Assembly: GCF_014696925.1 (NCBI RefSeq)
Contig: NZ_JACJQY010000009.1
Location: 62,001-126,000 of the forward strand
DNA length: 64,000 bases
Reading direction: 5' to 3'
DNA from: Phormidium tenue FACHB-1050
Lineage (GTDB): Bacteria > Cyanobacteriota > Cyanobacteriia > Pseudanabaenales > Pseudanabaenaceae
Numbering within the stretch: position 1 is the first letter of the stretch; each line of letters begins with the position of its first letter. Positions 4,241 through 58,931 of this stretch are shown one piece after another. A program made the position numbers and the translations under genes. The notes under the pieces were generated by a model that worked only from the letters and a program-made list of their open reading frames with translations, made no database searches and was not told where the DNA came from.

Positions 4241-4381
4241 ATGGAAATAATTTGGCTGGTTTTAGGTGTGTTGCTATCGTCTCGGTTATTTAAAGAAAAA
4301 CCCAAGAAGAGAATGGCGGCGCTTCTCGCCGCCATTCTCTTCTTGGGTTTTATGTCCTCATACACTTGGCGACAGCTATAA
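4241..4381 (+). CDS. possible 46-residue small membrane protein read through a palindrome
   Basis: An uninterrupted frame from ATG 4241 to TAA 4381 encodes MEIIWLVLGVLLSSRLFKEK, a basic stretch PKKR, a second hydrophobic segment MAALLAAILFLGFM and SSYTWRQL. The second half is encoded by the palindrome at 4298-4350 and its right flank. The apex base that differs from the repeat consensus (CTTCTC instead of CTTCGC) turns an Arg codon into Leu inside the hydrophobic segment. It may be a real two-helix protein or an accidental frame through a repeat; no ribosome binding site is obvious. Confidence 0.3.
   Translation: MEIIWLVLGVLLSSRLFKEKPKKRMAALLAAILFLGFMSSYTWRQL
4298..4381. repeat. GGCGGCG-core palindrome with right end of element
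   Basis: Perfect 24-bp stem (4298-4321 / 4327-4350) with the core GGCGGCG-CTTCT-CGCCGCC, followed by a tail ending GCGACAGCTATA. The tail matches the right end of the copies at 16537 and 58822. The corresponding left end is missing, so this is a partial copy. Confidence 0.8.
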
Positions 4382-4611
4382 CAGATGCTGAGTATCAGTT
4401 CGCTAATCAATATGTCTTCAAACTTCGTGAATTATACAGACAGAAACTTCAAAGTAAATTAAATATTAAAAGAAAACGATTATTAAAATTGGTGCATGGT
4501 GATGAATCTACACTTAAACGGATTGTTGAATATGAACATCTTCGTAATCCCGATAAGTCAGAAGAATTATTGTATGAAAATGCGATTGATCGTCTTGAAA
4601 GAGGTAGGTAA
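4366..4611 (+). pseudogene. 5'-truncated unknown gene, start replaced by repeat
   Basis: The frame encodes about 80 residues of a charged, soluble protein (EYQFANQYVFKLRELYRQ, IKRKRLLKLVHGDESTLKR, DRLERGR). No ATG exists in the open part, which extends back to 4294 through the palindrome; only a TTG at 4366 inside the repeat tail could serve as start. I recognise no family. The simplest reading is a gene whose 5' end was replaced by the palindromic element. Confidence 0.4.
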
Positions 4612-4747
4612 TTAGTTTACAGAAGGAATTAATTCTGTCTGCGTAACGTCAATAAATCCGTTAAAATTAAGAGCAACTCATGATGCAAACAAAGAGCTTT
4701 TTTTGCTCTATATTTTTCCTGTCTGAAACTTAAGGGTTCACTTCACT

Positions 4748-7700
4748 ATGCTAAGCAATTTGGAAGCGGCGATTGTGCAAAACCCTCTAGTTGCATTGGT
4801 CGAAGCAACTGTGCTTTCAGCAGTGGAACAGATGAGTAACCTGAGTAGGCAGGAGATAGATGGGGACAATGGATCATCAACCTGTGTAGTGATTATATCC
4901 AAAGAGCTAAAAGTTTTAGGCATCTTGACACAACAAGACGTGATGCGTCTAGTAACTCAACAGAGGTCGATCGCCAAACTGACGCTTAGGCAATTCTTAA
5001 AACAGCACCGATCGCCATCAGATAGCCTCATAATTTCACAATCTGACTTAAGGAATTTGCGTAATATTAACGCCGCGATCGCCTATTTTGAGTCGTCACA
5101 AATTACGCATTTAGCGATCGTGGACGCGCAAGAACAACTGGTTGGTGTACTCCAGCATGAATCTCTCAAACGTCTGAGAGATTCCATCATTCACGAAGCC
5201 ACTGCTTCGCTCTTTGCTATTCAACAAAAAATTCATGAACGAATTGCCAAGGCAGAACCACTGAAAGATGTATTGGTGGATTTGCTGCAAACGATGGAAA
5301 CCTATCTGCGGGGTAGTAGTTGTTCGATTACACTCTGTATGGATGATAGACGAATGGGAGATGTGATCGCCCATAGCCTACCTCCAGAATATGCAAGGAT
5401 AGTCTCTGAAATGGGATTACCGATCGCGGAGGGCGTGGGTAGCTGCGGGACTGCGGCGTTTCGGCGCGAATTGGTTGTGGTGACGGATATTGAGAATGAT
5501 CCACTATGGCAGAATGACAAAGCCTTTGTCCTCTGCTATGGCTTACAAGCCTGTTCGTCCATGCCGATTTTTGCCAGCGATCGCACTTTATTAGGTACAT
5601 TTGGCATTTACTATCGCGAGCAGAAAGCGCCTCAAGCTCAGGAGCTAGACTGGATCGCTCAGGCTGCCCATATTGCAGGTATAGCGATCGAGCGAGATCG
5701 AGCCATACAAGCTTTGCAGCAACTAAATCACGAACTGGAAAATCGGGTGCAGGTACGAACGCAGGAATTGCAAGAACGGGAACAATTTTTGCAGACGGTA
5801 CTGGATACATTCCCCCTTTCGGTGTTCTGGAAAGATGTTAATTCGGTATATCTGGGATGTAACCAGAATTTTCTGGACGATGCAGGGCTTCAGACGATCG
5901 CGGAGATTATTGGCAAGACAGATCGTGAAATGCCTTGGGGGGAAACGGAAGCCGATCTTTACCGAGCCGACGATCAAGCGGTGATCGAGAGTCAAACCGC
6001 CAAACTGGGGATTGTGGAAACTTTGCACCATGCTAATGGTCAAACCATTTGGTTGGAAACTAATAAGCTTCCCCTCCGCAATCTCCAAGGTGAAGTGATC
6101 GGTGTGTTAGGGACTTACCAAGATATCAGCGATCGCAAAGCCGTAGAACTTGCCTTGCAAGCCAGTGAAGCCAAACTCCGACGGATTACCGAAAGTGTGC
6201 CAGGGATGATTTATCGCTATGTTTTGCACCCTGATGGTCGTGATGAGTTGGTTTATGTCAGCCCTCAAGTGCAGCAGATTTTTGAATTGACTCCTGAAGT
6301 GGTGCTTCAGGATATGAGTTGTCTCTGGGCGCGAGTTCACCCAGAAGATATTCCTATAGCTCAAAGTGCAATTCAGGAGTCGGCTGTTTCTCTACAACCC
6401 TTTTTCATTGAAGAACGTTTGCTCCTGTCTGGAAATCGGATGAAATGGATTCACAGTAGTTCCCAACCCACCCGCCAAGAGAACGGCGACATTACTTGGG
6501 ATGGGGTAGTGATGGATATCAGCGATCGCAAAGCCGTAGAACTTGCCTTGCAAGCCAGTGAAGCCAAATTCCGACGGATTACTGAAAGTGTGCCAGGGAT
6601 GATTTTCCGCTATGTTTTGCATCCTGATGGTCGTGATGAGTTGGTTTATGTCAGCCCTCAAGTGCAGCAGATTTTTGAATTGACTCCTGAAATGGTGCTT
6701 CAGGATATGAGATGTCTCTGGGCGAGATTTCACCCAGAAGATATTCCTATGATTCAAAGTGCCATTCAGGATTCGGCTGTTTCCCTCCAATCCTTTTTAG
6801 TTGAAGGACGTTTACTCCTGCCGAATGAACGGGTGAAATGGATACAAGTTAGCTCCCAGCCCGATCGCCAAGAAAATGGTGATGTTATTTGGGATGGCGT
6901 GGTGATTGATATCAGCGATCGCAAAGCTGTTGAAAAAGCACTGATGCTTAAACAAAAGCATCTCAAAGCACTGATGAACAATATTCCCCATCTTGCTTGG
7001 ATTAAGGATGAACAAGGTCGGGTTATTGCAGTAAATGAACCCTTTGCCCAAGCCTTTGGCGTTTCATCTGAGGAATTAGTCGGTAAAACAGCTCATGATA
7101 TTTTCCCAGCAGACTTGGCTCAAGCCTATCATGACGATGACGTTGAGGTCTTACAATCTGGTCAACGCAAGGTGGTGGTGGAGCGTGGCGCACTGGCTGA
7201 TGGCACTTTGGGGTGGTTTGAAACGACTAAAACACCCTTTCGGGATGATCAGCTAAACATTGCAGGAACCGTGGGGATTGCGGCGAATATCACTGAGCTT
7301 AAAATGATGGAGCTGTCGTTAAAAGCCAGTGAGCGCCGCTATGCCAGTCTCGCTGCGGCGGCTCCAGTCGCTATTTTCCGCTTTGATGAGCCACTCAACT
7401 GTGTTTATGTCAACGAACGCTGGAGTGCTCTGAGTGGGCGACCGATGGAATCAGCCTTGGGACATGGTTGGATGGAGTCAGTGCATCCCGAAGACAGAGA
7501 GCAACGCATTGCCGAATGGGCGGGATACTATGCCCAATCTAATTCTGAAGATCTAGTCATTCATGGCAGCGAAGGTCGGCATCTCCGTCCAGATGGCACT
7601 ACAACTTGGTGTTATATCCAAGCGGCGAAGGAATTCGATGATGATGGCAACGTAGTGGGCTACATCGGCACGCTGACCGATATTACCGATCGCAAAAATA

Positions 7701-10441
7701 TCGAACTCGCCCTCCAAGAAAGTCAAGCCCAATTCCGCCGCATGACAGAAAGTGTACCAGGGATGATTTTTCGCTATGTTTTGCATCTTGATGGTCGTGA
7801 TGAAGCGGTCTATGTCAGCCCCCAAGTACAGCAGATTTATGAACTCACCCCTGAAGAGGTGTGTCAGGACATTAGCTGTCTCTGGGCGAAGGTTCATAAG
7901 GATGATGCTCCGATGATGAAAATGGCTATTGAGAGTTCGGCTGACTCTCTGCACCCCTTTTTAGTCGAAGCGCGTATACTCCTGTTGGGAGAGCGGATGA
8001 AATGGGTACAGATTAGTGCTCAGCCCGATCTCCAAGAGAATGGCGATGTTATTTGGGATGGCGTGGTGATTGATATTAGCGATCGCAAAATTGCTGAGAA
8101 AGCACTGATGCTTAAACAAAAGCATCTCGAAGCGCTGATGAACAATATTCCCCAACATGCTTGGATTAAGGATGAACAAAGTCGGCTTATTGCGGTAAAT
8201 GAACCCTTAGCCCAAGCCTTTGGAGTTTCGGCTGAAGAATTAATCGGGAAAACAGCTTTTGATGTTTGTCCAGTAGACTTAGCGCAAGTTTATCATAACG
8301 GTGATGCTGAGGTATTGCAATCTGGTCAACGCAAAGTGGTTGTAGAGCATAGCAAACGCGCTGATGGCACTTTGGGGTGGTTTGAAACGACCAGAACACC
8401 CTTTCGGGACGATCAGCTAAACATTGCGGGAACGGTGGGAATTGCGGCGGATATTACTGAGCAGAAACAGGCTGAACAGAAATTGCAAGAGCTATCCGAA
8501 CGATTAGAACTAGCAATTCAATCCGCTCAAATTGGCGTTTGGGAATTTGATTTCTCCAATAATCGCCTGTTTTGGGACGAACGGATGCTGGCTATTCATG
8601 GCGTATCGCCCGAAGCATTTCATGGCACTTACGAGGACTGGAGTAGTCGTGTGCATCCCGATGACTTGCCCCATGCCCAGCCCGACATTTTAGAGGAGCA
8701 AGCTATTTACAACACAGAATTCCGCATCATTCGCCCCGATGGTACAGTCCGATGGGTTATGTCGTACTCCTGCAAACAACGCAACCATCAGGGAGAATTA
8801 GTGCGTGCGGTAGGCGTGAATATTGATATTAGCGATCGTAAAAACGCTGAACTTGCACTTCAAGACTTATCAGATCGCCTAGAATTTGCTCTTAAAGGAG
8901 CCAATATTGGTATTTGGGAATATCAAATGAATGAAGAGCGCTTGATCTGGGATGAGCGCATGTTAAGCCTTTATGGAATTTCATCAGAGGAGTTTTCTGG
9001 TAAATATACGGACTGGCTTCAGCGCGTTCATCCCGATGATCTAGATTGGGTTCAGCAGGCTGAACGACAAGCCCATCAAGGAGCTAGAGAATGTCGCGTC
9101 GAATTTCGGATTGTTCGCCCAGATAGCACAATCCGCTTTATCGATTCCTACGCTTTCAAACAATATAACGCCCAAGGTGAAATTTTAAAAACGATTGGAT
9201 TAAACATTGATATTACCGATCGCAAACAGGCAGAAGCGCAACTGCAACACATTAATGAAGAACTGATCAAAGCAACTCGCCTCAAAGATGAGTTTCTTGC
9301 CAATATGAGCCACGAATTACGCACTCCCCTCAACGCCATTTTAGGCATGACGGAAATCCTTCAGGAGGAGATTTTTGGTGACTTAAACGATCGGCAAATG
9401 CAATCTCTCCAAACCATTGAGAAAAGTAGCAACCACCTACTGGAATTGATTAACGATATTCTGGATGTGGCAAAAATCGAAGCGGGGCAAATTCATCTAT
9501 CTTGTCAACCTAGTAATGTAGAAACGCTTTGTCAATCAAGTTTAGTCTTTATTAAGCAACAAGCCTTCAGCAAAAATATTCAACTAGAGTCAGTGATTCC
9601 CGCCAACCTGCCTACCATCAACCTTGATGAACGGCGAATTCGTCAAGTTCTGATTAATCTGCTCAATAATGCTGTCAAATTCACACCGAACGGCGGCAAA
9701 ATCATCCTACAGGTAAACTATATCGAGTTTCTGAATAATGCCGAAATCGTGCAGAGCCGAGCATGTGACACTCTAGAGATTAGCGTCATTGATACTGGCA
9801 TTGGGATTGCGCCAGATCAGATCAAACGGTTATTCCAACCGTTTGTACAGGTTGAGAGCGCCCTCAATCGTAACTACGAAGGTTCGGGACTGGGTTTAGT
9901 CCTCGTCAAGCGCTTGGTTGAGCTGCATGGCGGTGAAGTCAGATTAACCAGTGAATTAGGTGTGGGCAGTTGCTTTACGATCGCGATTCCGAACTCGCCA
10001 TTCTGTGAATTATCCGTTGAGACAGAACCTGCACTTCCGTCTAACTCCGAGGCGATCAAACCTGAAATCGAGGGCGCACCAGTAATTTTACTCGCCGAGG
10101 ATAATGAGTCGAATATCAACCTGTTTGCTGATTATTTGAGTCTCAAGGGCTATCGCTTAGTCATTGCCCACAATGGACAAATGGCGATCGACTTGGCACA
10201 ACAAACCCACCCTGATTTAATTTTAATGGATATTCAAATGCCAGAAATGGATGGATTGGAAGCGATCCAGCACATTCGCCAAATACCTGAGTTAGTCGAT
10301 ACGCCAATCATTGCATTAACCGCACTGGCGATGGCAGGCGATCGCGATCGGTGCATCGCCGTGGGCGCAAATGACTATCTCAGTAAACCAGTGTCACTAA
10401 AGCAGCTAGTCAAAAAAATCAACGACTACTTGACGGACTAG
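4748..10441 (+). CDS. giant multi-PAS hybrid sensor histidine kinase
   Basis: 1897 residues, cytoplasmic by sequence. Order: a CBS-like pair (about 10-140), a GAF domain (about 145-320, containing GVGSCGTAAFRRE), a coiled coil, nine PAS/PAC units (about 345-1500), a HisKA domain with phosphoacceptor His1522 in NMSHELRTPLNAILG, an HATPase domain (about 1625-1750, with DTGIGIAPDQIKRLFQPF and GSGLGLVLVKRL) and a C-terminal receiver with Asp1828 in LILMDIQMPEMDG. Several PAS units end in ISDRK. Units 2, 3 and 6 are near copies of each other, as are 4 and 7, and 8 and 9. Ligands cannot be read from the sequence. No partner regulator is adjacent; the built-in receiver suggests a phosphorelay. Confidence 0.93.
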   Translation: MLSNLEAAIVQNPLVALVEATVLSAVEQMSNLSRQEIDGDNGSSTCVVIISKELKVLGILTQQDVMRLVTQQRSIAKLTLRQFLKQHRSPSDSLIISQSDLRNLRNINAAIAYFESSQITHLAIVDAQEQLVGVLQHESLKRLRDSIIHEATASLFAIQQKIHERIAKAEPLKDVLVDLLQTMETYLRGSSCSITLCMDDRRMGDVIAHSLPPEYARIVSEMGLPIAEGVGSCGTAAFRRELVVVTDIENDPLWQNDKAFVLCYGLQACSSMPIFASDRTLLGTFGIYYREQKAPQAQELDWIAQAAHIAGIAIERDRAIQALQQLNHELENRVQVRTQELQEREQFLQTVLDTFPLSVFWKDVNSVYLGCNQNFLDDAGLQTIAEIIGKTDREMPWGETEADLYRADDQAVIESQTAKLGIVETLHHANGQTIWLETNKLPLRNLQGEVIGVLGTYQDISDRKAVELALQASEAKLRRITESVPGMIYRYVLHPDGRDELVYVSPQVQQIFELTPEVVLQDMSCLWARVHPEDIPIAQSAIQESAVSLQPFFIEERLLLSGNRMKWIHSSSQPTRQENGDITWDGVVMDISDRKAVELALQASEAKFRRITESVPGMIFRYVLHPDGRDELVYVSPQVQQIFELTPEMVLQDMRCLWARFHPEDIPMIQSAIQDSAVSLQSFLVEGRLLLPNERVKWIQVSSQPDRQENGDVIWDGVVIDISDRKAVEKALMLKQKHLKALMNNIPHLAWIKDEQGRVIAVNEPFAQAFGVSSEELVGKTAHDIFPADLAQAYHDDDVEVLQSGQRKVVVERGALADGTLGWFETTKTPFRDDQLNIAGTVGIAANITELKMMELSLKASERRYASLAAAAPVAIFRFDEPLNCVYVNERWSALSGRPMESALGHGWMESVHPEDREQRIAEWAGYYAQSNSEDLVIHGSEGRHLRPDGTTTWCYIQAAKEFDDDGNVVGYIGTLTDITDRKNIELALQESQAQFRRMTESVPGMIFRYVLHLDGRDEAVYVSPQVQQIYELTPEEVCQDISCLWAKVHKDDAPMMKMAIESSADSLHPFLVEARILLLGERMKWVQISAQPDLQENGDVIWDGVVIDISDRKIAEKALMLKQKHLEALMNNIPQHAWIKDEQSRLIAVNEPLAQAFGVSAEELIGKTAFDVCPVDLAQVYHNGDAEVLQSGQRKVVVEHSKRADGTLGWFETTRTPFRDDQLNIAGTVGIAADITEQKQAEQKLQELSERLELAIQSAQIGVWEFDFSNNRLFWDERMLAIHGVSPEAFHGTYEDWSSRVHPDDLPHAQPDILEEQAIYNTEFRIIRPDGTVRWVMSYSCKQRNHQGELVRAVGVNIDISDRKNAELALQDLSDRLEFALKGANIGIWEYQMNEERLIWDERMLSLYGISSEEFSGKYTDWLQRVHPDDLDWVQQAERQAHQGARECRVEFRIVRPDSTIRFIDSYAFKQYNAQGEILKTIGLNIDITDRKQAEAQLQHINEELIKATRLKDEFLANMSHELRTPLNAILGMTEILQEEIFGDLNDRQMQSLQTIEKSSNHLLELINDILDVAKIEAGQIHLSCQPSNVETLCQSSLVFIKQQAFSKNIQLESVIPANLPTINLDERRIRQVLINLLNNAVKFTPNGGKIILQVNYIEFLNNAEIVQSRACDTLEISVIDTGIGIAPDQIKRLFQPFVQVESALNRNYEGSGLGLVLVKRLVELHGGEVRLTSELGVGSCFTIAIPNSPFCELSVETEPALPSNSEAIKPEIEGAPVILLAEDNESNINLFADYLSLKGYRLVIAHNGQMAIDLAQQTHPDLILMDIQMPEMDGLEAIQHIRQIPELVDTPIIALTALAMAGDRDRCIAVGANDYLSKPVSLKQLVKKINDYLTD

Positions 10442-10456
10442 AAATAGTTATCCCAA

Positions 10457-10484
10457 AGCACAAAATGCGTAGCCATTTTGTGCT
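10457..10484. repeat. hairpin with stem AGCACAAAATG
   Basis: Arms 10457-10467 and 10474-10484, stem AGCACAAAATG/CATTTTGTGCT. It matches one half of the TAATACCAA-bounded element found at 58682-58790 and sits 16 bp after the kinase stop. Confidence 0.65.
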
Positions 10485-10502
10485 GTTAAAACCCTTGCTG
10501 GA

Positions 10503-10577
10503 TATAGCTGTTAAAACCCAAATAGTGTAGGGCGGCGCTTCGCGCCGCCCTACACTATTTGGGTTTTAACAGCTATA
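10503..10577. repeat. perfect 36-bp GGCGGCGC-core palindrome
   Basis: Arms 10503-10538 and 10542-10577 pair without a mismatch around TTC; the element starts TATAGCTG and ends CAGCTATA. The core is GGCGGCGC/GCGCCGCC with the arm AAACCCAAATAGTGTAG. This is the most symmetric member of the family. Confidence 0.9.
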
Positions 10578-10622
10578 TTACACATCACGGTATATTTAGC
10601 TAAAGATACAATCATCCTCGCT

Positions 10623-16501: not shown

Positions 16502-16536
16502 CTGTCTACGTTTCGATGTATACCTATAGTCACTTA

Positions 16537-16621
16537 CACAAACCCAGAAGACGAGTGGCGGCGCTTCGCGCCGCCACTCGTCTTCTGGGTTTGTGTCCTA
16601 ACAAGAATGGCGACAGCTATA
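16537..16621. repeat. GGCGGCGC-core palindrome with right end of element
   Basis: Perfect 28-bp stem (16537-16564 / 16568-16595) around TTC, arm AACCCAGAAGACGAGT, core GGCGGCGC. It is followed by a tail ending GGCGACAGCTATA like that of the copy at 58822; a TATAG also stands upstream at 16525. Confidence 0.85.
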
Positions 16622-16836: not shown

Positions 16837-16889
16837 AAACCCAAAATAAAAGTGGCGGCGCGAAGCGCCGCCACTTTTATTTTGGGTTT
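16837..16889. repeat. perfect 25-bp GGCGGCGC-core palindrome
   Basis: Arms 16837-16861 and 16865-16889 around GAA, arm AAACCCAAAATAAAAGT. It lies 80 bp before recQ. The stretch 16783-16830 between it and the previous repeat resembles a fragment of the CCCCCTAA/AATTCTTGGGG repeat seen intact at 34799. Confidence 0.85.
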
Positions 16890-20168: not shown

Positions 20169-20170
20169 GT

Positions 20171-20275: not shown

Positions 20276-21127
20276 GTGAATCTCGATCGCTTAAATTCCT
20301 ATCCAGCACCAGCCCGCATCATTCTATTTTTACTAACTTTGTTGGTGCTATGGCTACCGATCGCCGCACCAATGTATTTAATTTGGGGGGAGACGGTTGG
20401 GGTAGCCCTGACAATTTTGTTGTATTGCGGATTTTTGGGATTAATTTGGTTCTGGGGACGCAAAATTGCTAAATATTCGCATCCCTATCGCTATTACGGT
20501 TTGTCATTTACTCGCAAAAATGGCAGCGATTTTTTGTTTGGCTTGGGACTAGGCTGTGTGACCCTGATTATTTTCTTTGGACTACAGGTAAGTCTGGGTT
20601 GGCTAGCAGTACAAACTGTCACTTGGCAGCAGCCCTTACCAGATAATCTCTTACCAGCGATCGGCGTGTATTTTGTCGATTGGCAAGGGGCTATATTACC
20701 TGGGCTGTTGACTTCTGTTGGTGTGGGATTTGCAGAGGAAATGTTATTTCGTGGTTGGGTGCTATCGGAGCTAGAGCGTGATTATTCCAAAAATACAGCT
20801 TTACTGGGTTGCAGTCTCGTATTTGCGATTTTGCACTTTATCAAGCCCCTAAATGTAATTCTCGAAACATGGAGCCAATTTCTCGGTTTAGTGATGCTCA
20901 GTGTTGCCCTAGTCCTAGCTCGACGCAGATGTGATGGCAGATTAGGGATCTCAGTGGGCTTACATGGTGGCTTAGTTTGGTGTTATTACATTGTCAATAC
21001 GACCCATTGGCTAAAACCAACAGGCGTTGTGCCTGAGTGGGTAACGGGTATTAGTGGCAACCCGATCGCAGGTGTGATGGGAATTATTTTTTTAAGTGCG
21101 ATCGCGATCGGCTTTCATAAAAAATAA
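20276..21127 (+). CDS. CPBP family intramembrane metalloprotease
   Basis: 283 residues with seven to eight hydrophobic segments. The CPBP (Abi/CAAX protease) motif 1 is GFAEEMLFRGWVL, with the paired Glu and Arg; motif 2 is in GCSLVFAILHFI and a further conserved His in VGLHGGLVWCY. Such proteins are membrane glutamic-type proteases, related to Rce1; bacterial roles include maturation of peptides or immunity to them. The GTG start at 20276 gives MNLDRLNSYPAPARII; no earlier start is usable. The last four residues and stop lie in the left arm of a perfect palindrome. Confidence 0.85.
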   Translation: MNLDRLNSYPAPARIILFLLTLLVLWLPIAAPMYLIWGETVGVALTILLYCGFLGLIWFWGRKIAKYSHPYRYYGLSFTRKNGSDFLFGLGLGCVTLIIFFGLQVSLGWLAVQTVTWQQPLPDNLLPAIGVYFVDWQGAILPGLLTSVGVGFAEEMLFRGWVLSELERDYSKNTALLGCSLVFAILHFIKPLNVILETWSQFLGLVMLSVALVLARRRCDGRLGISVGLHGGLVWCYYIVNTTHWLKPTGVVPEWVTGISGNPIAGVMGIIFLSAIAIGFHKK

Positions 21128-21160
21128 AAAGAGGCTAAGCCTCTTTTTATTTTTTATGAA
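21114..21160 (+). terminator. perfect 23-bp palindrome spanning a stop codon
   Basis: Arms 21114-21136 and 21138-21160 around a single A. The left arm includes the final codons FHKK and the TAA of the CPBP gene; the right arm repeats them inverted. T-rich 3' side, good terminator form. Confidence 0.85.
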
Positions 21161-21226
21161 AATTCCTATTGCAAGTAGTGCAATAAATGTATATGATTAG
21201 ATTCGCTTGGAAAACAACTAAGCAAA

Positions 21227-21765: not shown

Positions 21766-21891
21766 TATAGCAAAGCAAGTTTTGCTTAGGACATAAAACC
21801 CAAGAATCAAGTGGCGGCGCTTCGCGCCGCCACTTGATTCTTGGGTTTTGGTTTGTACTAGCTAACTCTTTTTTTGCTATAGCTGTCGCCT
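21766..21891. repeat. complete palindromic element with TATAGCAAA ends
   Basis: 126-bp element with terminal inverted repeats TATAGCAAA / TTTGCTATA. It contains the perfect 26-bp stem 21795-21820/21824-21849 (arm AAAACCCAAGAATCAAGT, core GGCGGCGC-TTC). Its right end overlaps the left end of the next copy. Confidence 0.8.
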
Positions 21892-22010
21892 TTCTTGTTA
21901 GGACATAAAACCCAAATAGTGTGAGGCGGCGCGAAGCGCCGCCTCACACTATTTGGGTTTTGATTTGTGCTGATACAGGTAGACACAAAATGGCGTAGCC
22001 ATTTTGTGTC
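21888..22010. repeat. second palindromic element plus hairpin, abutting a gene end
   Basis: Begins TATAGCTGTCGCC, contains the perfect 26-bp stem 21907-21932/21936-21961 (arm AAAACCCAAATAGTGTGA, core GGCGGCGC-GAA), then CTGATACAGGTAG. A further perfect hairpin (21982-21994/21998-22010, stem GACACAAAATGGC) touches the stop codon of the leftward gene. Confidence 0.8.
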
Positions 22011-33706: not shown

Positions 33707-34735
33707 ATGAAAACCAGAGCGATCGCCTTGAGCGTGATAACCGCCTTACTAGTTAGCATTCCCAGCTTTGGCAGGGTCGCCTCCTTATCCGCCGCACCCA
33801 AGGATTTTGAGCCTGAAGAAAAAATCACAATGGAAGTCTATCGGTCAGCAAATCCTGCGGTAGTAACCATCAAAGCCGCGAATAGCACTGGCTCAGGCAG
33901 CATCATTACCCCTGAAGGCTTAGTAATTACTAATGAGCATGTCATTCGTGACGCAAAAAATGGGCTGGTCAAAATTATTAATACTGAAGGAAAAACCTAT
34001 AACGGACAGGTTCTTACGGTTGATCGCAAAAATGATTTGGCTTTAGTGCGGATTAACTCTAGCGATCGCTTTCCGACCTTAGCATTTGCCGATCGCGAAA
34101 ATATTCTGGTTGGTCAAAGAGTATTTGCGATCGGTAGTCCCTTTGGATTGTCAGGTACGCTCACCACAGGCATTCTCAGCCGTGTCGCAACCAATGGCGA
34201 TCTACAAACCGATGCTAGACTCAATCCTGGGAATTCTGGGGGACCCTTGCTCAACTCTCGTGGTGAAATGATTGGTGTAAATAAAGCGATTCTTAGCCCC
34301 GATGGACGCTCCAATACAGGAATTGGCTTTGCCATAAGCGCCCCCATCGCCAAAGAATTTCTCACCCGTAGCGCGGCGCTCATCAAGCCGAATCCTGTCG
34401 CCAGTCTTCCTAGTTCTCAGACGAAACCAGCACCTGCCCTATCTCCCCAGACCAAGGCTCCAGCGATCGCCTCAGCTCCACCATCTACGACATTGGCGGA
34501 ACGACCTCAATTAGGAGTGATTCTCAATCCAGCGAGCCTCACTGTTTATGAAGTGCGCCCTAACTCTCTGGCTAGTCTTATGGGTTTAAAACGTGGCGAT
34601 CGCTTGATTGGATTAAATGGCACACCGCTCAGCGATGCTAAACAAATTGTTGATTATCTAGCTCAGCGTCCATCGGTTGCACTTTTGACCGTAGCCAGAA
34701 CTACAGGTATTACCAACTATCAAATCAAATTCTAA
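33707..34735 (+). CDS. HtrA/Deg-like periplasmic serine protease with PDZ domain
   Basis: 342 residues. A signal peptide (MKTRAIALSVITALLVSIPS) directs it to the periplasm or thylakoid lumen. The trypsin-like domain has the triad His78 (VITNEHVI), Asp110 (NDLALV) and Ser177 (NPGNSGGP); one C-terminal PDZ domain (about 258-340, LASLMGLKRGDRLIGLNG) follows a Pro/Ala-rich linker. Members of S1C degrade misfolded proteins under stress. It is smaller than typical HhoA/HtrA (about 400 residues) because of a short N-terminal extension. Its stop codon is inside the left arm of a GC-core palindrome. Confidence 0.9.
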   Translation: MKTRAIALSVITALLVSIPSFGRVASLSAAPKDFEPEEKITMEVYRSANPAVVTIKAANSTGSGSIITPEGLVITNEHVIRDAKNGLVKIINTEGKTYNGQVLTVDRKNDLALVRINSSDRFPTLAFADRENILVGQRVFAIGSPFGLSGTLTTGILSRVATNGDLQTDARLNPGNSGGPLLNSRGEMIGVNKAILSPDGRSNTGIGFAISAPIAKEFLTRSAALIKPNPVASLPSSQTKPAPALSPQTKAPAIASAPPSTTLAERPQLGVILNPASLTVYEVRPNSLASLMGLKRGDRLIGLNGTPLSDAKQIVDYLAQRPSVALLTVARTTGITNYQIKF

Positions 34736-34791
34736 AACCGAAAAGAGAAAGGGCGGCGCTTCGCGCCGCCTTTTCTCTTTTCGGTTTTAGA
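34731..34791. terminator. GGCGGCGC-core palindrome spanning the protease stop codon
   Basis: 29-nt arms (34731-34759 / 34763-34791) around TTC, paired throughout with one G-T pair; arm TCTAAAACCGAAAAGAGAA. The TAA of the htrA-like gene is in the left arm and is repeated inverted in the right arm. Confidence 0.85.
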
Positions 34792-44844: not shown

Positions 44845-44889
44845 CCTAAAAAGTAAAGGCGGTGCGATGCGCCGCCTTTACTTTTTAGG
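44845..44889. repeat. GC-core palindrome (variant GGCGGTGC)
   Basis: 21-nt arms (44845-44865 / 44869-44889) around GAT, paired with one G-T; arm CCTAAAAAGTAAA. A member of the GGCGGCGC family with different arms. Confidence 0.8.
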
Positions 44890-44913: not shown

Positions 44914-44999
44914 ATATAGCAAAGCAAGTTTTTCTTACAACCCAAAACCCAAGAAGCGAGTGGCGGCGCGAAGCGCCGCCACTCGCTTCTTGGGTTTTG
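44914..44999. repeat. palindromic element with TATAGCAAAGC left end
   Basis: Begins TATATAGCAAAGCAAGTTTTTC like the element at 21766, and contains a perfect 27-bp stem (44943-44969 / 44973-44999) around GAA with arm CAAAACCCAAGAAGCGAGT and core GGCGGCGC. Confidence 0.85.
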
Positions 45000-45031
45000 C
45001 TAACTCTTGCAATTAACGAGCAAACGAACCA

Positions 45032-51476: not shown

Positions 51477-51504
51477 TGGATGTATAGAGAAGGAAACAAA
51501 TATT

Positions 51505-51732: not shown

Positions 51733-51998
51733 AATATCAAATCGCTAAACGCTTCAAAAAAGATTTAGACAAAATCAATGATCGCAAAATTCTTGCAAAA
51801 GTTAGAAAATGTATTGAATCAATTGCAACTTCTCAAACACTGTCCGAAATTCCCGATCTTGAGCCACTAAAAGGATTTTCGGGATACTATCGCATTAGGT
51901 TCGATTATAGCTATCGTATTGGAATTTTCTGGGATGGAGAAGTTATTGAAATCCTCAAAATAGAGAGTCGCGAAGGATTCTACAAAAATTTTCCTTAG
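51729..51998 (+). CDS. RelE/ParE superfamily toxin
   Basis: 89 residues. MKYQIAKRFKKDLDKINDRK, PLKGFSGYYRIRFDYSYRIG and ILKIESREGFYKNFP give the RelE/ParE fold: two helices, then the strand with the basic YRIRFDYSYRI patch. RelE-type toxins cut mRNA on the ribosome; ParE-types inhibit gyrase, and sequence alone does not decide. Translation is coupled to the upstream gene through a 4-nt overlap. Confidence 0.85.
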   Translation: MKYQIAKRFKKDLDKINDRKILAKVRKCIESIATSQTLSEIPDLEPLKGFSGYYRIRFDYSYRIGIFWDGEVIEILKIESREGFYKNFP

Positions 51999-52091
51999 AT
52001 CGCTTAGAGTACTTTAATGCAATGTTCTAATACTAAATGTTTGAGTGCGTTACGCTACGCAAACACACCCTACTTAATTTCAAATTATCGC

Positions 52092-55000
52092 TCACAGATA
52101 TTTTTGAATCATCTCTGTTAGAAGACTTAATCTCACAGGTTTGCTGAGATACTCATCAGCACCAGCTTTTAAGCAACGCTCATGATCATCTTTCATTGCT
52201 AAGGCAGTCAAAGCAATAATGGGAATATCCCCAATCCCCAAGTCTTGACGAATCCGCTTGGTCGCTTCGATACCATCCATAATTGGCATTTGAATATCCA
52301 TTAAGATGACATTAGGGCGGAGTGATTGAACCAAAGCGATCGCCTCTTGACCATTTTCGGCGAAAGCTAGACGGTAGCCTTTTGCCTCAAGATATGTTGA
52401 GATGGTCATCACATTTGCTGCATCATCCTCAACCAGTAGAATTAAGGGAGCAGAGAGTTGATCTGTTTGATCTGATTGGGAATGCAGTTCCTCCACTGAA
52501 GAAGGGATTTCGGTCAGCCAAGGTAGATTGATGATAAAAGAACTACCAGCACCAACTTCACTATTAACCTGCACAAAGCCTTTGTGAAGTTCTACAATTT
52601 TTTTAACCAGAGCCAAGCCTAAACCCGTCCCTTCGTACCTGCGATTGAGCGCACTGTCTATTTGGGTAAAGGGTTGGAAGATTTTATCGAGATTTTCAGG
52701 TAAAATGCCGATGCCAGTATCTTTGATGGTAATGCGAAGGAAGCCTTGAGGACAATTCATTGTTGGATCGGGTAAGGATTGCCCATCGATACAGAGAGAA
52801 ACCTGTCCACCATCTGGCGTAAATTTGACAGCATTGCTCAACAGATTGATAAGGACTTGCTTGATCCGATTGGTATCCATCAGCAGAGATGGCAGTTGAT
52901 TGGGAAGACTAGTTTGAAACTGAATCCGTTTTTTCTGCGCCTGTGGTTGAAGCATTTGCAAACTGGCATAACAAAGCTGGACAATATTTGTAGGTGCTAG
53001 GGTAAGTTCGAGTTTGTCTGCTGTAATTTTGGAAAGATCAAGGATATCGTTGATCAGAGTGAGTAGGTGAGTACCACTCTGATTAATCGTGTTCAGAGCT
53101 TTAAGCTGCTTAGGATTAATATCTCCAAAAATTTCTTCTTGTAAACCCTCTGTCATTCCCAAAATGGCATTGAGGGGCGTACGGAGTTCATGGCTCATGG
53201 TAGCGAGAAACTCATCCTTCAGGCGGGTGGCGCGAATCAGTTCTGCATTGGTGCGTTCAAGGTATTCTTCATGGTTTTTGCGATCGCTAATATCTTGGGC
53301 TTGGGAAAAGGCAAATCCTTGCCCTTCGGATTCTAGATAATTACTCGTAATTTCCACAGGGAAAATTTTGCCGTCTTTGTGTTGGTGATAGGTTTCAAAT
53401 CTCACATATTTTTTTTGAGTTAGATCTTGCCAGTAACGCGACCATTCTTGGGGTTGGAGGTACGCATCAATATCCCAAATATAACGCCCCTGTAATTCAT
53501 CTTGACCATAACCAAGGCTAGAGCAAGCAGCTTCGTTAGTATCCCAAAATGAACCATCCTCGCGAATCCAGAAAATTCCCATGGCGGTTTTATTGACAGC
53601 AAATTGCGTCAGCTTTAGAGATTTTTCGGCTTTTTTCAATTCGCTGATATCGCGCATGATGGTCGAGAAATGTTTGACTTCTCCCGCTGCATTCTTATGG
53701 GCGATAATCACTTGAGAAACTGGAATTTCTTGCCCCTTATCGTCTAGGAGAGCCAGTTCTCCTGTCCAACTTCCTTGCGCGATCGCAGTTGGCAAAGCTT
53801 GATTTAAGATGATTTCATTAGCCCAGTTAGGATGACATTCTGAAATATCTTTGTGAACGGTTAAGTCGTGACGCAATGTTCGGAGTGGCTTATTGTGCCA
53901 GATAATTTCTCCCTTAGCATTGGCTACGCCTATATAATCGGGCGTTGTTTCGAGAACATCTATGAGTCTTTGTTGTTCAGCTTCAAGTTGTTTTAGTTCC
54001 ACTAAAGACTGTTCTAACTGCTCGGCATAACCCTGAGATTGCTGATAGAGTCGAGCATTTTCCAACGAGATCGCGGCTTGAGTACAAAGGAAGTTAAGAA
54101 TGAGAATGCGATCTTTGGTAAAAACCCCTTGAGTTGATCGATTGCTGACGTACATAATACCCACCACCTGCCCTTGGTGCAGTAATGGTAGACAGAGGAT
54201 ACTTTGGGGTCGCTGCTGTTCGAGATATGGATCGATAATCGGCAGATCAGTATTCAGGTTATCAATCACCAAGACTTCTTGGGTATTTTTGACATACTGA
54301 ATCAACTTAACAGGTAAATTGTGATCCTTTTCAAGGAGAGTGTTGCCTAGAGCAATACTATTTGGTGTAGCGATCGCTCGTACTTGCCATTCTTTAGAGA
54401 GATTAGGAAGTACTAACGCACAGCGATCGCCCCCTGAATTTTGCAAAATAATCTGAGTCAGTTGATGTAGTAGCTCATCTAAGTGAATCGTACTAGAGAG
54501 AGCTTGGGACGCTTTGAGAATACTGGCAAAATCAATGCTTTGGTTAAGAATACTATAGTTTTTGCCCGTGCTAGAATGCTCCGATATTGTGGGCGCAGCA
54601 ACAGCCATCAGCATATTTAATACTTCCCCTGAAACCGCTGATGGTTGCAAAATGGAGCCTAGAAGTTCGGGATAGCGCTGCTCTAAATCATCAGTTTTAG
54701 CTTTTGCACCCCAGCGATAATAGCAGTAATAAGCTTCTTGCATATAGCTTGCGGCGATCTTTTCTTTGCCTGAGTCGAGATAGAATTTAGCAGCAAGTTC
54801 ATTCGCGATCGCTTCTTCTTGAATATAGCCGTTGTTCCTTGCACCAGCGATCGCCAAGTCATAAAGTTCCATCGCTTGATAACGCTTACTTAAAATGCGA
54901 TGTCGTTCCGCCTCCACCAAATCGTACTTATGTTGAAAGGTTACAGGCGCAGCATCAACTCTCACCTTGAGCCAAGCTTGGTTGCGATCAACAAGATCCA

Positions 55001-58000
55001 GCACAGTCGTGAGATCTGATTGAGCATGGCTCGGATATTGAGCAAGTTCAGCCAAAGACTGCACAAAATTATGCATGGGAATTGTAAATACCCCTGGAAT
55101 TGCAAAGGTATGTTGACCGCATTGGGCGGCAAACCCTGCGCTTTGTTCGTAACGTCCAAATAGATAGTTTATGAAGCTTTTGGCAAGATAAAAGCAAACC
55201 AAAGTATTGTGGACATTGCCCGCTTCTAATTCTGGCTGACTCTCTTCCTCGTTGAAATAGGCTCCCCTTAAATAGAACACTTGATCGGTGAAGGGTTGGC
55301 GCAGATTATAGACCATTTGTCGCCAGACACAAGCAAATTCCCGTGAGAAGGACTGCTTTAGATAACGATCAATAAAAGCGATCGCTCGCTCCTGTTCTTG
55401 AGCAACTGTATCCAGCTTTTCCCCAGCCCAAATCGGGTAATGACAGTAATGCATGGCAGCATAGCTGGCATATTCGAGATCTCCTGTATCTAAACCGCTA
55501 TACATCAATTCCCGCAAGGGATTTAGAGTATTGCGGAGAGGTTCGCGATAGGCAAGAATATGGGCATTGTAGAGTACTCCTAACTTAGTTCTAAGGGTTG
55601 GAGTATTCAGTTTTTCTTTCAGATATAAACTCAGTTCCCCCGCTCGATATCCCAAAAGAATTTTGCCCTGTGCGCCTGTTACCAACCACCCATAGGCGGC
55701 ATAGGCATAGGGAGAGAGCTTGGAATTACCATAGGCTAACGATAGCTTCAACATCGTTACCACAACTTGAGGAAAGAGGTTTGTTGCAATAAAGACGGGA
55801 GGAATAATCGTCATCAACACACTCATTGATCGGAGAATCAGAGGATCGCTCATGGTAGCGATCGCTTCTAGTTCTTCTTGTTTAGGTAAAACGATCTCCT
55901 CTTCGGCGGTTTTGGCATCTAAAATCTCAACTCCCAAACTCTCCAAAATGCCACATCCCAATTCAACCGCCTCCAACATTCGCCCACGAGCAATTTCAAT
56001 TAATACTTGAACTTCAAGGATTTTAGCCCGTTCAAGGGGGGAACTCACATTCGCTAAGGTTTGCTCTCCGATCGTCCATGACTGTTCATAATCACCATTG
56101 AGATAGGCGACCTCCATCCTTGCAATGGCAAGATCTAATCGGCGATCGCTGTCATCACCCCAAGGAACATCAGGAAGCAAACTCCAAGCAATTTCAAAAT
56201 ATTTAATTGCCGCTCCATAGGCGACAGACTTACGCGACTTTTCTCCAGCTTGCATATTCAAAACTAAGACTGTTTGCCGTTCTGTCTCAGTTTCGATTAA
56301 ATGCCGCCCATGATTAAACTGACTTGTCAACACAAAAAGTTGGAGATCTCGATCTTCTTCAGTAGTTTGCTGAAGTAGTAATCGCCCAATTTTCAAGTGA
56401 AACTTTGACTTATCATGCTCAGCAATCAGATTATATGCAGCTTGTTGAACGCGATCGTGCAGAAATCGATAATGGAGGATTTCGGTCGGTTCCAGTTGTT
56501 GTGCTTCTGACTCTCCCAATCCTCCCAAATAGAACTTATAAAGAATGCTTTGCGGGAGAATCAATCCATCCTGCAAGGCTTGCCATAGTGATGTCGCTAC
56601 TTCCGTTTGAGATTGCTCCGCAACAATTGCCAACGTAGTTAGATCAAATTGCGCTCCAATACAGGCCGCCAGCTTTAACATCTCTTTGGTCGATTCTGGC
56701 AATTTTTGTAACTGCAAAGCCATAAACTCGACCACATCATCGGTCAAAGCCGATTCTCGGACTTTTGCCATATCGCATTGCCAGTGATCAGCATCGTGGT
56801 CAAATGTAATCAGTTGCTCTTGATACAAGGTCTTTAGGAACTGGGTAGCGAAGAAGGGATTACCTTGAGTCTTTTGCATCACCAGATCCGAGAGGGGATG
56901 TGCTAAAGATTCTGCCACATGCAGCGTATCGGCAATCAGGTGGTTGAGACTAGCAAAGCTGAGGGGTTGGAGCGTAATCGTATGGATGGGAACCTCGACT
57001 TTTTGCATCTCATCAAGGCTTAACATCAGAGGATGAGCAGGAGAAACTTCATTATCACGATAGGCTCCCAGCAATAGCAAATAGCCTGTCTGCACATCAG
57101 CCATTAGCAAATGAATTAAGTTTAATGATGCCGAATCCGCCCATTGCAAGTCATCGACAAAGATTACCAATGGATGCTCGGCGGTGGTAAATACTTGAAT
57201 AAACCGTTGGAACAGGATGTTAAACCGATTTTGAGCAGCAGTTCCCGATAGTTCTGGTGCGGAAGACTGAGCACCAATGATGCGTTCTAAAGCGGGAATC
57301 AGTTCAACAATAACTTGAGCATTTTCTCCTAAGGCTTCTAAAATCTGTGTCTTCCAAGTTTGTAGTTGTGTATCACTTTCACTGAGTAGTTGCCCAACTA
57401 AGTCGCGAAAGGCTTGCACAAAAGCTGAAAAGGGAATACTGCGATTAAACTGATCGAACTTGCCTTTGATAAAGTAGCCCCGTTGTCGTGCGATCGGTTT
57501 ATGTACCTCATTGACTACGGCAGTTTTACCCACCCCTGAATAACCCGCCACCAGCATCAGTTCCGATGTCCCCTGAGATACTCGATCAAAGGCTGTTAGC
57601 AAGGTGTGAACTTCAGTCTCTCGTCCGTAAAGTTTTTCTGGAATCAGGAAGCGATCGCTTAAATCTCTCTGACCTAATCCAAATTCAACAACTGTGCCTG
57701 TTTCCTGCCATTGAACTAAGCATAGTTCCAAATCATGCTTGAGAATAATTGCACTTTGATAACGATCTTCAGCATTCTTAGCCATCAATTTTGCCACGAT
57801 CGCCGCAACCATCATAGGAACGCTAGGATTGACCTCATTCACAGACACAGGGATTTGAGCTATATGGCTATGGAGTAATTCCAGTGGATCTTCACTAGTA
57901 AATGGAAGTCTTCCAGTTAGCAATTGATATAGTGTCACCCCCAGAGCATAAAAATCAGCCCGATAGTCAAGCCCCCTGTTCATCCGCCCCGTTTGTTCTG

Positions 58001-58574
58001 GAGCCAGATAAGCCAGAGTTCCTTCTAGGTGTTTCGGACTTTGGAGTACTTGGGTCTCTTTTGGCAGTAGTGAAGCAAGGCTAAAGTCGATCAGCCTGAC
58101 CTGTTTGGATTCTGGATGAATCAGAATATTGGCAGGTTTGATATCTTTGTGAATCACCCGATGTTGATAAAGTTCGTGGCAAATATCAGCAAGTTGAATG
58201 GCAATATCAAGGATTTCCCTGATGGTAAGAGAATGATTTTGATAGTATTGACTTAAAGAAATCCCCCCAAAGTCCTCCATAACTAATGCATAGCTATTGC
58301 CACAATATAGGAGTTGCAGATGCCGAATAAAGCCTTCAATAGGTAAGTCCTTCGCGACCATGTATTGATTGCGAAACTGCACTAACTCGCGAAATGAGGG
58401 ATATTCCTGAGCTAAGATTTTGATGACTACAGGTTGCTGTGTAACACTCTCTACAGCACGATAGACTATGGTTCGGGAACCCTGATAAACAAGCTCAACA
58501 AAGGTATATTTAGAGAGTTGTTGTTTTGCTTGAGCTAGTTGATTGGCAAAGCGACTCATAGGGTCAACAGGCAA
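52092..58574 (-). CDS. giant Ser/Thr kinase-ATPase-GAF-PAS-histidine kinase-receiver hybrid
   Basis: 2160 residues. Order: Ser/Thr kinase-like domain (about 22-285) with HKDIKPANIL and APEQTGRMNRGLDYRADFYA; an AAA/STAND-type ATPase (about 315-620) with P-loop GYSGVGKT and LVIFVDDLQWAD; a long helical TPR-like region (to about 1290); GAF (about 1330-1500); coiled coil; two PAS units (about 1510-1760); HisKA with His1795 in TMSHELRTPLNAILG; HATPase with DTGIGILPENLDKIFQPF; receiver with Asp2093 in LMDIQMPIMDG. This order is typical of the large cyanobacterial multisensor kinases. The kinase metal-binding motif reads DFS, not DFG, and the glycine loop is poor, so that domain may be weak or a scaffold. 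A palindrome-rich spacer separates it from SMI1. Confidence 0.93.
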   Translation of the reverse strand: MPVDPMSRFANQLAQAKQQLSKYTFVELVYQGSRTIVYRAVESVTQQPVVIKILAQEYPSFRELVQFRNQYMVAKDLPIEGFIRHLQLLYCGNSYALVMEDFGGISLSQYYQNHSLTIREILDIAIQLADICHELYQHRVIHKDIKPANILIHPESKQVRLIDFSLASLLPKETQVLQSPKHLEGTLAYLAPEQTGRMNRGLDYRADFYALGVTLYQLLTGRLPFTSEDPLELLHSHIAQIPVSVNEVNPSVPMMVAAIVAKLMAKNAEDRYQSAIILKHDLELCLVQWQETGTVVEFGLGQRDLSDRFLIPEKLYGRETEVHTLLTAFDRVSQGTSELMLVAGYSGVGKTAVVNEVHKPIARQRGYFIKGKFDQFNRSIPFSAFVQAFRDLVGQLLSESDTQLQTWKTQILEALGENAQVIVELIPALERIIGAQSSAPELSGTAAQNRFNILFQRFIQVFTTAEHPLVIFVDDLQWADSASLNLIHLLMADVQTGYLLLLGAYRDNEVSPAHPLMLSLDEMQKVEVPIHTITLQPLSFASLNHLIADTLHVAESLAHPLSDLVMQKTQGNPFFATQFLKTLYQEQLITFDHDADHWQCDMAKVRESALTDDVVEFMALQLQKLPESTKEMLKLAACIGAQFDLTTLAIVAEQSQTEVATSLWQALQDGLILPQSILYKFYLGGLGESEAQQLEPTEILHYRFLHDRVQQAAYNLIAEHDKSKFHLKIGRLLLQQTTEEDRDLQLFVLTSQFNHGRHLIETETERQTVLVLNMQAGEKSRKSVAYGAAIKYFEIAWSLLPDVPWGDDSDRRLDLAIARMEVAYLNGDYEQSWTIGEQTLANVSSPLERAKILEVQVLIEIARGRMLEAVELGCGILESLGVEILDAKTAEEEIVLPKQEELEAIATMSDPLILRSMSVLMTIIPPVFIATNLFPQVVVTMLKLSLAYGNSKLSPYAYAAYGWLVTGAQGKILLGYRAGELSLYLKEKLNTPTLRTKLGVLYNAHILAYREPLRNTLNPLRELMYSGLDTGDLEYASYAAMHYCHYPIWAGEKLDTVAQEQERAIAFIDRYLKQSFSREFACVWRQMVYNLRQPFTDQVFYLRGAYFNEEESQPELEAGNVHNTLVCFYLAKSFINYLFGRYEQSAGFAAQCGQHTFAIPGVFTIPMHNFVQSLAELAQYPSHAQSDLTTVLDLVDRNQAWLKVRVDAAPVTFQHKYDLVEAERHRILSKRYQAMELYDLAIAGARNNGYIQEEAIANELAAKFYLDSGKEKIAASYMQEAYYCYYRWGAKAKTDDLEQRYPELLGSILQPSAVSGEVLNMLMAVAAPTISEHSSTGKNYSILNQSIDFASILKASQALSSTIHLDELLHQLTQIILQNSGGDRCALVLPNLSKEWQVRAIATPNSIALGNTLLEKDHNLPVKLIQYVKNTQEVLVIDNLNTDLPIIDPYLEQQRPQSILCLPLLHQGQVVGIMYVSNRSTQGVFTKDRILILNFLCTQAAISLENARLYQQSQGYAEQLEQSLVELKQLEAEQQRLIDVLETTPDYIGVANAKGEIIWHNKPLRTLRHDLTVHKDISECHPNWANEIILNQALPTAIAQGSWTGELALLDDKGQEIPVSQVIIAHKNAAGEVKHFSTIMRDISELKKAEKSLKLTQFAVNKTAMGIFWIREDGSFWDTNEAACSSLGYGQDELQGRYIWDIDAYLQPQEWSRYWQDLTQKKYVRFETYHQHKDGKIFPVEITSNYLESEGQGFAFSQAQDISDRKNHEEYLERTNAELIRATRLKDEFLATMSHELRTPLNAILGMTEGLQEEIFGDINPKQLKALNTINQSGTHLLTLINDILDLSKITADKLELTLAPTNIVQLCYASLQMLQPQAQKKRIQFQTSLPNQLPSLLMDTNRIKQVLINLLSNAVKFTPDGGQVSLCIDGQSLPDPTMNCPQGFLRITIKDTGIGILPENLDKIFQPFTQIDSALNRRYEGTGLGLALVKKIVELHKGFVQVNSEVGAGSSFIINLPWLTEIPSSVEELHSQSDQTDQLSAPLILLVEDDAANVMTISTYLEAKGYRLAFAENGQEAIALVQSLRPNVILMDIQMPIMDGIEATKRIRQDLGIGDIPIIALTALAMKDDHERCLKAGADEYLSKPVRLSLLTEMIQKYL

Positions 58575-58594
58575 TTAGACTTAGCAATTCATTA

Positions 58595-58686
58595 TATAGC
58601 AGTCACCTGTATCAGGACAAATCAAAAAAAATAGTAGGAGGCGGCGCGAAGCGCCGCCTCCTACTATTTGGTTTTATGTCCTAATA
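58595..58686. repeat. GGCGGCGC-core palindromic element, left end intact
   Basis: Starts TATAGCAGTCACCTGTATC and holds a perfect 19-bp stem (58629-58647 / 58651-58669) around GAA with arm AAATAGTAGGA. The right end is cut at GTCCTAATACC, where the TAATACCAA-type element begins. Confidence 0.8.
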
Positions 58687-58790
58687 CCAATTCACGAAAG
58701 TGTGACAACACTTTTGTGAATTAAGAACCAAACCCAGTAAGGGTTTTAAAAGCACAAAATGACTACATCATTTTGTGCTTTGATATAATG
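58682..58790. repeat. TAATACCAA-type two-hairpin element
   Basis: Begins TAATACCAATTCACG, with hairpins 58689-58703/58708-58722 (one mismatch) and 58749-58762/58769-58782, separated by AAACCCAGTAAGGGTTTT. It appears inserted into, or recombined with, the right end of the preceding element. Confidence 0.75.
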
Positions 58791-58821
58791 AACAAGAAAC
58801 ACTAGAAATTTTAAGTATAGT

Positions 58822-58931
58822 TATAGCCACCTGTATGAGGACAAATCAAAACCCAAATAGTGTGAGGCGGCGCTTCGCGCCGCCTCACACTATTTGGGTT
58901 TTATGTCCTAACAAGAATAGCGACAGCTATA
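58822..58931. repeat. complete GGCGGCGC-core palindromic element
   Basis: 110-bp element from TATAGCCACCTG to GCGACAGCTATA with a perfect 26-bp stem (58848-58873 / 58877-58902) around TTC, arm AAAACCCAAATAGTGTGA. The right end CTATA is followed by ATA to form TATAAT ten to fifteen bases before the SMI1 start. Confidence 0.85.

Follow-up and report, generated by a model that had tools for sequence, protein, structure and literature searches.

Small hairpin-associated inversions in chloroplast DNA were reportedly described by Kelchner and Wendel in 1996. When a stem shows compensatory change, selection on RNA structure is usually considered proven. In the template-switch model, hairpin arms are homogenised and spacers are inverted (Abraham and Hazkani-Covo 2021, PMC8604942). 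Template switching is also described as creating and maintaining RNA hairpins (Monttinen and Loytynoja 2022, PMC8794818). The strongest support to be expected, a compensatory change together with a loop inversion, is extremely rare in ribosomal RNA (rRNA), the loops of which have a strong direction preference (PMC8794818). Here we describe a family of palindromes in a 64,000-nucleotide stretch (the window) of the cyanobacterium Phormidium tenue FACHB-1050. We consider it probable that these palindromes are the central hairpins of an element of Pseudanabaena and its close relatives that resembles a miniature inverted-repeat transposable element (MITE) and inserts at TA, and that their arms are kept complementary largely by rewriting of the arms at the DNA level.

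The window comes from a contig of 150,765 bases, and the genome (G000) is 5.63 Mb in size. High abundance of HIP1 sites (GCGATCGC) is a mark of cyanobacteria, and 107 were observed against 0.9 expected. Two relatives, G022 and G005, which are approximately 90-93% identical to G000 over shared stretches, were used for ortholog comparison. The strict core of the family is GGCGGCGC-NNN-GCGCCGCC. There are 430 copies of it in G000 and none of the reversed control pattern. The search covered 38 genomes. Each of the 23 from the same genus carries 18 to 430 copies of the strict core (three more members, met later, are left out of this count). It is absent in 13 of the 15 genomes from other genera and single copy in the other two. 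The family pattern was also found in at least 92 stretches of named genomes; among the matches listed, 88 are from Pseudanabaena and four are from 'uncultured' or 'Oscillatoriales' cyanobacterial contigs. No match to the outer-plus-core pattern was found in the viral contigs searched, and viral carriage of the family was rejected on this basis. No work on this family in Pseudanabaena was found among open-licence PMC papers, which is no proof of absence.

The family is a minority of a larger hairpin population. Long palindromes (stem score of at least 14) number 373 in an 842 kb sample of G000 (4.4 per 10 kb). As many as 350 are mismatch-free and just 54 have the GGCGGCGC core. A chance origin is excluded because a base-shuffled control of 150 kb has no long palindrome and the reversed core pattern has no match. 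Five further stretches from the genus have 0.5 to 3 long palindromes per 10 kb. Other cyanobacterial genera yielded six in 14 stretches (278 kb), four of the six within one genome; the G030 stretch among the 14 had been selected to include its only core match, and one more stretch, of 267 bases, was excluded. The most frequent three-nucleotide loops in the sampled genome are GAA/TTC, AAA/TTT and GTA/TAC. As DNA, GC-GAA-GC forms a mini-hairpin of unusual stability, and this might favour fold-back. That perfect palindromes are tolerated because the hairpin nuclease SbcCD was lost was rejected, as SbcD is present in all 23 genus genomes searched, with two strong matches in most of them. Loss of exonuclease VII was rejected as well (xseA in 23 of 23). 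A second SbcD-like match lies above the cut-off in 22 of the 23, and second matches in other genera are mostly weak.

All eleven window copies listed by the sequence-only reading are present. Ten of them pass the long-palindrome filter and nine of these have no mismatch in the scored stem (Table 1). The statement that in every copy the other arm had changed to match is slightly overstated, since the copy at 34731 has a G-T mispair, that at 4297 a shortened core and that at 44845 is degenerate, while pairing in that at 58629 extends over only 19 bp. Arm pairing was assessed by direct pairing and a shuffle test. With only the left half, AAACCCAA-N9-GGCGGCGC, required, 75 of 84 copies from the G-numbered genomes alone have a fully paired 9-bp arm. 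Their 35 distinct arms have a pairing of 0.946 compared with 0.437 after shuffling (shuffle maximum 0.521). A larger set under the same left-half condition gave 148 of 168 copies fully paired over the nine variable positions, and 71 distinct arms with a pairing of 0.961 versus 0.428 (maximum 0.512 of 500 shuffles). Half of the 168 copies come from named loci fetched by a pattern that demands a paired core, although not paired arms, and the figure for the G-numbered genomes is the clean one. The arms thus covary strongly, as had been claimed, and the contrary outcome that had been named, arms mostly unpaired across the genome, was not found. The differences between copies largely follow subfamilies. 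Among 186 copies that are perfect next to the core (of 229), the arm ATAGTGTGA occurs in 28 and AAGATGAGT in 21.

Full copies have the structure TATAGC..end A (..GGACAT)..AAAACCCAA-arm-core-loop-core'-arm'-TTGGGTTTT..end B (GATTTGTCC..)..GCTATA, or the reverse. The element is approximately 115 bp long, and its two ends differ and are only partly similar. No recognisable ends were seen in 115 of the 229 copies; conflicting ends occur in 7 of the 114 that have them. One clean full-length empty site was identified, a 115-bp insertion (ATATAGCTGTCGCC...GGCAGCT/ATA) in G022 (C1_2077001 #19) at a site that is empty in G000. It has a TA-type duplication of 2 or 3 bp, the length being ambiguous because the element ends contain TA. 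Other empty sites are less clean; at G000 C1 #107, for example, the right end is degraded. The window element at 44943 is absent in G005. Complete elements are repeated at numerous sites in G022 and G005. This short, multi-copy family with inverted ends is classified as MITE-like, and as TA-inserting from the empty site with its TA-type duplication; it is or was mobile. The suggestion of a small non-autonomous mobile element is therefore supported by this site, by the recurrence in relatives and by the two distinct ends. The element is presumably moved by a transposase. None of eight IS630-type (DDE_3) transposase matches in G000 was seen with a matching end pair, in a search that covered part of the genome and this transposase family only, and an IS630-type parent is not supported. 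No widely spaced pair of ends of one type was present in the fetched contigs. Other MITE-like repeats with target duplications of 7-10 bp, which also have long palindromes, are found at G022 C1_2077001 #9, G022 C1_2867001 #36 and G000 C1 #58.

Recombination between copies has also left its marks. Arm replacement with the core kept had been predicted as a sign of rewriting, and a single orthologous site shows it (G000 C4:56243 versus G022). The truncated left junction is common to both genomes, and the hairpin and the right end have both switched subfamily. Because the right end was replaced too, arm rewriting was rejected for this site, and the swap is ectopic gene conversion. A hybrid copy with unpaired arms lies near C3:47877. 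The tandem pair at 21.8 kb of the window corresponds to a single element in G022, as expected from recombination between the two repeats.

Orthologous hairpins were compared only where the arms were gapless, at least one arm had 70% identity or more, both 20-nt flanks were at least 70% identical and the lengths were equal within 6. This strict filter was introduced since looser counts of double versus single changes took in sites with an unrelated hairpin in the relative. It drops 56 of 87 anchored hairpins for G000-G022, 40 of 57 for G000-G005 (3 more of 60 were omitted because the relatives' stretches were overlong) and 38 of 48 for G022-G005. True orthologs with larger indels are among those dropped, for example G000 C2:65892. 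From G000 to G022, the 31 hairpins retained (585 pairs) have 24 paired double changes, 20 one-sided changes and 3 positions where both sides changed and are unpaired. The permutation mean for paired changes is 1.32 and the maximum 7 of 2000. The gene-conversion site supplies 5 of the 24, and 19 remain without it. The same three classes number 12, 21 and 3 from G000 to G005 (17 of 57 hairpins; permutation mean 1.07, maximum 6) and 10, 18 and 0 from G022 to G005 (10 of 48; mean 1.23, maximum 5). In the reverse directions they number 33, 44 and 2 from G022 to G000 (34 of 97; mean 2.12, maximum 8), 16, 19 and 4 from G005 to G000 (17 of 45; mean 1.05, maximum 6) and 12, 13 and 1 from G005 to G022 (12 of 39; mean 0.89, maximum 4). 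Paired double changes far exceed the permutations in all six directions, as expected from template switching, in a comparison of small numbers where query hairpins were selected as near-perfect, the genome pairs share branches and no outgroup polarises the changes.

Paired arm change is thus real but general, as it concerns many perfect hairpins beyond this family. Contrary to what had been supposed, covariation is not complete, for the number of one-sided changes is similar to that of paired changes or higher. The hairpin at window 34731, the best example from the family, which is outside the filtered set and was described by eye, has three differing stem pairs among the three genomes. The first is A-T or G-C and the second G-C or C-G. 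At the third, G022 has G-C, G005 has T-A and G000 has a G-T mispair. The exchange of G-C and C-G has no G-U route. Other species (L267 and L268) have different perfect hairpins at this site, whose outer arm mirrors the final bases of the gene and its stop. This is no more than suggestive of arms growing into coding ends.

Arm differences might instead be old and spread only by transposition and ectopic gene conversion, with little change at fixed sites. The strong arm subfamilies, the whole-hairpin conversion at C4:56243, the hybrid near C3:47877 and the tandem pair that is single in G022 are all in keeping with such replacement. However, at orthologous hairpins outside the family the flanks align and one or a few paired positions differ. 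Loop direction also varies within a subfamily, and conflicting ends are rare (7 of 114). We consider subfamily replacement on its own very improbable.

Loops are frequently inverted. Exact reverse-complement loops were found in 5 of 22 scorable loops for G000-G022, 2 of 12 for G000-G005 and 2 of 9 for G022-G005, and inversion with one substitution fits 4, 0 and 2 more. The weaker cases include 2-nt loops and GATG/CATC, which differ by two bases only. In one ortholog AAC has become GTT without any arm base change, the exact spacer inversion with arms kept that is characteristic of template switching. Compensatory change and loop inversion coincide at three G000 sites: the inversion is exact at C4:56123, and the loop carries one additional substitution at C4:60783 and C1:287252. 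The direction of the loop in oriented elements is random. In the 107 elements that could be oriented by their ends (the 115 copies without recognisable ends and the 7 with conflicting ends excluded), GAA and TTC number 38 and 32, AAA and TTT 10 and 10, and GGA and TCC 5 and 5. The ATAGTGTGA subfamily alone has 13 GAA and 10 TTC. Loops in the transcript sense have no clear preference either (TTC 48 and GAA 44; AAA 34 and TTT 30).

Recombination between the inverted arms could invert the loop as well, in which case the matching of the arms would come from a separate process. The arms, of approximately 15-30 bp, are inverted repeats and the loop footprint would be identical. In our view, however, loops of only 2-4 nt, which are among those inverted, seem poorly suited to the pairing of two duplex arms, and plain inversion would not make the arms match. 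This explanation is unlikely.

We favour template switching between the arms. The nascent strand would switch to the other arm, copy it and return. Copying of the arm would either erase a new mutation or place it in both arms, and an intermolecular form of the switch would invert the loop. Point mutation combined with arm copying would give paired double changes, arm divergence near the flank rate and random loop direction, and all three are observed. By our own reasoning, if each mutation is either erased or passed on to the other arm, long-term divergence stays at the neutral rate. Divergence is in fact similar in arms and flanks: arm and intergenic flank values are 0.053 and 0.069, 0.059 and 0.065, and 0.108 and 0.104 in the forward comparisons, and 0.071 and 0.067, 0.088 and 0.084, and 0.077 and 0.103 in the reverse, the flanks serving as a comparison whose neutrality is not proven. 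The strand switch itself is presumed from footprints that are observed. Subfamily arms would be spread by transposition, with an occasional swap of the whole hairpin or a hybrid arising by ectopic recombination between copies. The earlier proposal that one arm is rewritten from the other is supported by the paired double changes and the exact loop inversions. It applies, however, to hairpins of many kinds, and a share of the matching may be due to selection.

Several observations weigh against rewriting as the main process. One-sided changes outnumber double changes in five of six directions and, for hairpins outside open reading frames (ORFs), in two of three pairs (forward double and one-sided changes of 17 and 16, 6 and 21, and 6 and 17). 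Rewriting is therefore not much faster than mutation and single-step events are not forced by the data, although rewriting in a single step may occur. Within 5 bp of the loop there are 1 double and 7 single changes, compared with 23 and 13 further out (G000-G022). This pile-up fits fold-back priming on the loop-proximal stem and also tolerated loop enlargement. Transitions account for 33 of 46 double changes in the three forward pairs pooled and for 261 of 460 changes (0.57) in the flanks (Fisher p 0.060). Without the gene-conversion site they are 31 of 41 (p 0.030), and no single pair differs significantly from the flanks. The excess is a mild sign of the G-U route predicted by selection, and selection probably contributes. 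Palindromes are densest between convergent genes (5.6 per kb of intergenic region, compared with 2.8 for tandem and 1.9 for divergent genes, under a simple ORF-based gene model), and an ORF stop lies inside the arm of 66 of the 373 (some of these ORFs may be spurious). Terminator function may contribute for these two reasons. The other route to loop inversion, between the arms, also counts here, as does the fact that no transposase with the family's ends was found among the eight DDE_3 matches and the fetched contigs.

A rival reading is selection on RNA pairing, in which the hairpins act as bidirectional terminators or messenger RNA stabilisers and single successive mutations remove or compensate mismatches. 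The enrichment between convergent genes, the stops in arms, the location of the 34731 hairpin at a stop codon, outer stems that are A-rich 5' and T-rich 3', the excess of transitions and the common one-sided intermediates all agree with it. Exact loop inversion and random loop direction are expected from arm-templated strand switching but not from pairing selection alone. Pairing selection also predicts slower-diverging arms, whereas arm divergence is not clearly below that of the flanks. Transversions make up 10 of the 41 double changes, and, under the same gene model, divergent genes flank 83 of the 349 intergenic palindromes. As the principal cause, pairing selection is possible but doubtful; selection would probably add to rewriting. 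A further conjecture is that the element's own copying, through a single-stranded or hairpin intermediate, would rebuild the arm and flip the loop in each cycle. The MITE would then heal its palindrome while moving, and the host's other hairpins would be remnants or by-products of the same machinery. We think this improbable.

Table 1. Palindrome copies in the window, with window positions
Feature	Position	Strand	Description
Family copy	4297..4380	.	Palindrome 4297-4351, arm GAAGAGAAT; right core shortened (read as 5-nt loop); right end to CTATA at 4380; left TATAG not found within 70 nt
Family copy	10502..10578	.	37-bp arms including TATAGCTGTT/AACAGCTATA ends; arm ATAGTGTAG; loop TTC; G022 carries other repeats at the site
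Family copy	16525..16621	.	Palindrome 16536-16596, arm GAAGACGAGT, loop TTC; TATAG at 16525; CTATA ends 16621
Family copy	16837..16889	.	Arm AATAAAAGT, loop GAA; TATAG ends not seen
Full-length element	21766..21881	.	Palindrome 21795-21849, arm GAATCAAGT, loop TTC; flanked by TATAGC and GCTATA
Second element, abuts 21766..21881 via shared TATA	21878..21990 (right end approximate)	.	Palindrome 21907-21961, arm ATAGTGTGA, loop GAA
Hairpin at stop codon of ORF 33707-34735	34731..34791	.	Orthologous in G022 and G005; one G-T mispair in G000
Degenerate copy	44845..44888	.	Arm AAAGTAAA; core GGCGGTGC versus GCGCCGCC; outer mismatches; missed by long-palindrome filter
Family element	44915..45009 (right end truncated, approximate)	.	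Palindrome 44943-44999, arm GAAGCGAGT, loop GAA; TATAG at 44915; absent in G005
Family copy	58595..58680 (right end approximate)	.	Palindrome 58629-58669, arm ATAGTAGGA, loop GAA; TATAG at 58595; only 19 bp paired
Full-length element	58822..58931	.	Palindrome 58848-58902, arm ATAGTGTGA, loop TTC; TATAG at 58822; CTATA ends 58931

The orthologous stretches in G022 and G005 have no palindrome like those at 16536-16596 and 16837-16889. The G005 ortholog of the degenerate 44845 copy has a paired core GGCGGCGC. The ends of the 58822 element are in the reverse order relative to the 21878 copy. Elsewhere in the window, a terminator-like hairpin at 21113-21161 lies upstream of a tRNA gene; its arms differ yet are paired in G000, G022, G016 and G019. 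At gathering thresholds, tRNA was the only known RNA family found in the window. Two long ORFs encode 1897 amino acids (4748-10441) and 2160 amino acids (52092-58574). The first contains internally repeated DNA, and a single region of G022 matches it several times in overlapping fashion.

The covariation is confirmed, yet by itself it is no evidence of RNA function. In genus genomes with very many perfect hairpins, where paired changes stand alongside loop inversions, covariation may be partly mutational, and structured RNAs should not be called from it alone. The related genomes are a large natural data set in which to measure the shares of DNA copying and selection in the maintenance of stems.

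Several known systems share parts of this behaviour. REP elements tagged with GTAG or CGTC are also short palindromes of high copy number and occur in cyanobacteria (PMC3733652). The family described here differs in that it inserts at TA sites, and GTAG or CGTC lies within 8 nt of the palindrome edge, on either strand, in only 16 of 229 copies. Pneumococcal SPRITE repeats are likewise dispersed hairpin repeats near gene ends and possible terminators (PMC3049150); they are AT-rich with 30 copies, and the part of that paper used here describes no loop inversion. Bacterial MITEs, including the cyanobacterial Nezha, are similarly short and multi-copy with inverted ends and a target duplication (PMC10969869, PMC3049150). 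Unlike them, the present element has a central perfect hairpin with variable arms and an autonomous partner was not found among the DDE_3 matches and fetched contigs. In the small hairpin-associated inversions of chloroplasts stem-loops have had their loop reversed repeatedly among related species, as is the case here (PMC6824564). Those were from 11 sites in 20 plastomes, and no mobile family or arm covariation is described in the text consulted.

The closest parallels are in template switching. In the yeast system one arm is copied from the other and short spacers are exactly inverted with arms unchanged, including TTC/GAA (PMC8604942). The account used reports ten spacer inversions in 39 protein-coding genes; the present case involves numerous intergenic hairpins, a mobile family and near-random loop direction. 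As for rRNA (PMC8794818), the explanation proposed for compensatory changes is an event at the DNA level. Unlike the rRNA hairpins of that source, compensatory change with loop inversion is seen here at C4:56123 (exact) and at C4:60783 and C1:287252 (one further loop substitution), and loops have no clear direction preference in the transcript sense. These kinds of element and event are already known; what is new is a genus-specific MITE-like family together with widespread matching of hairpin arms and frequent loop inversion.

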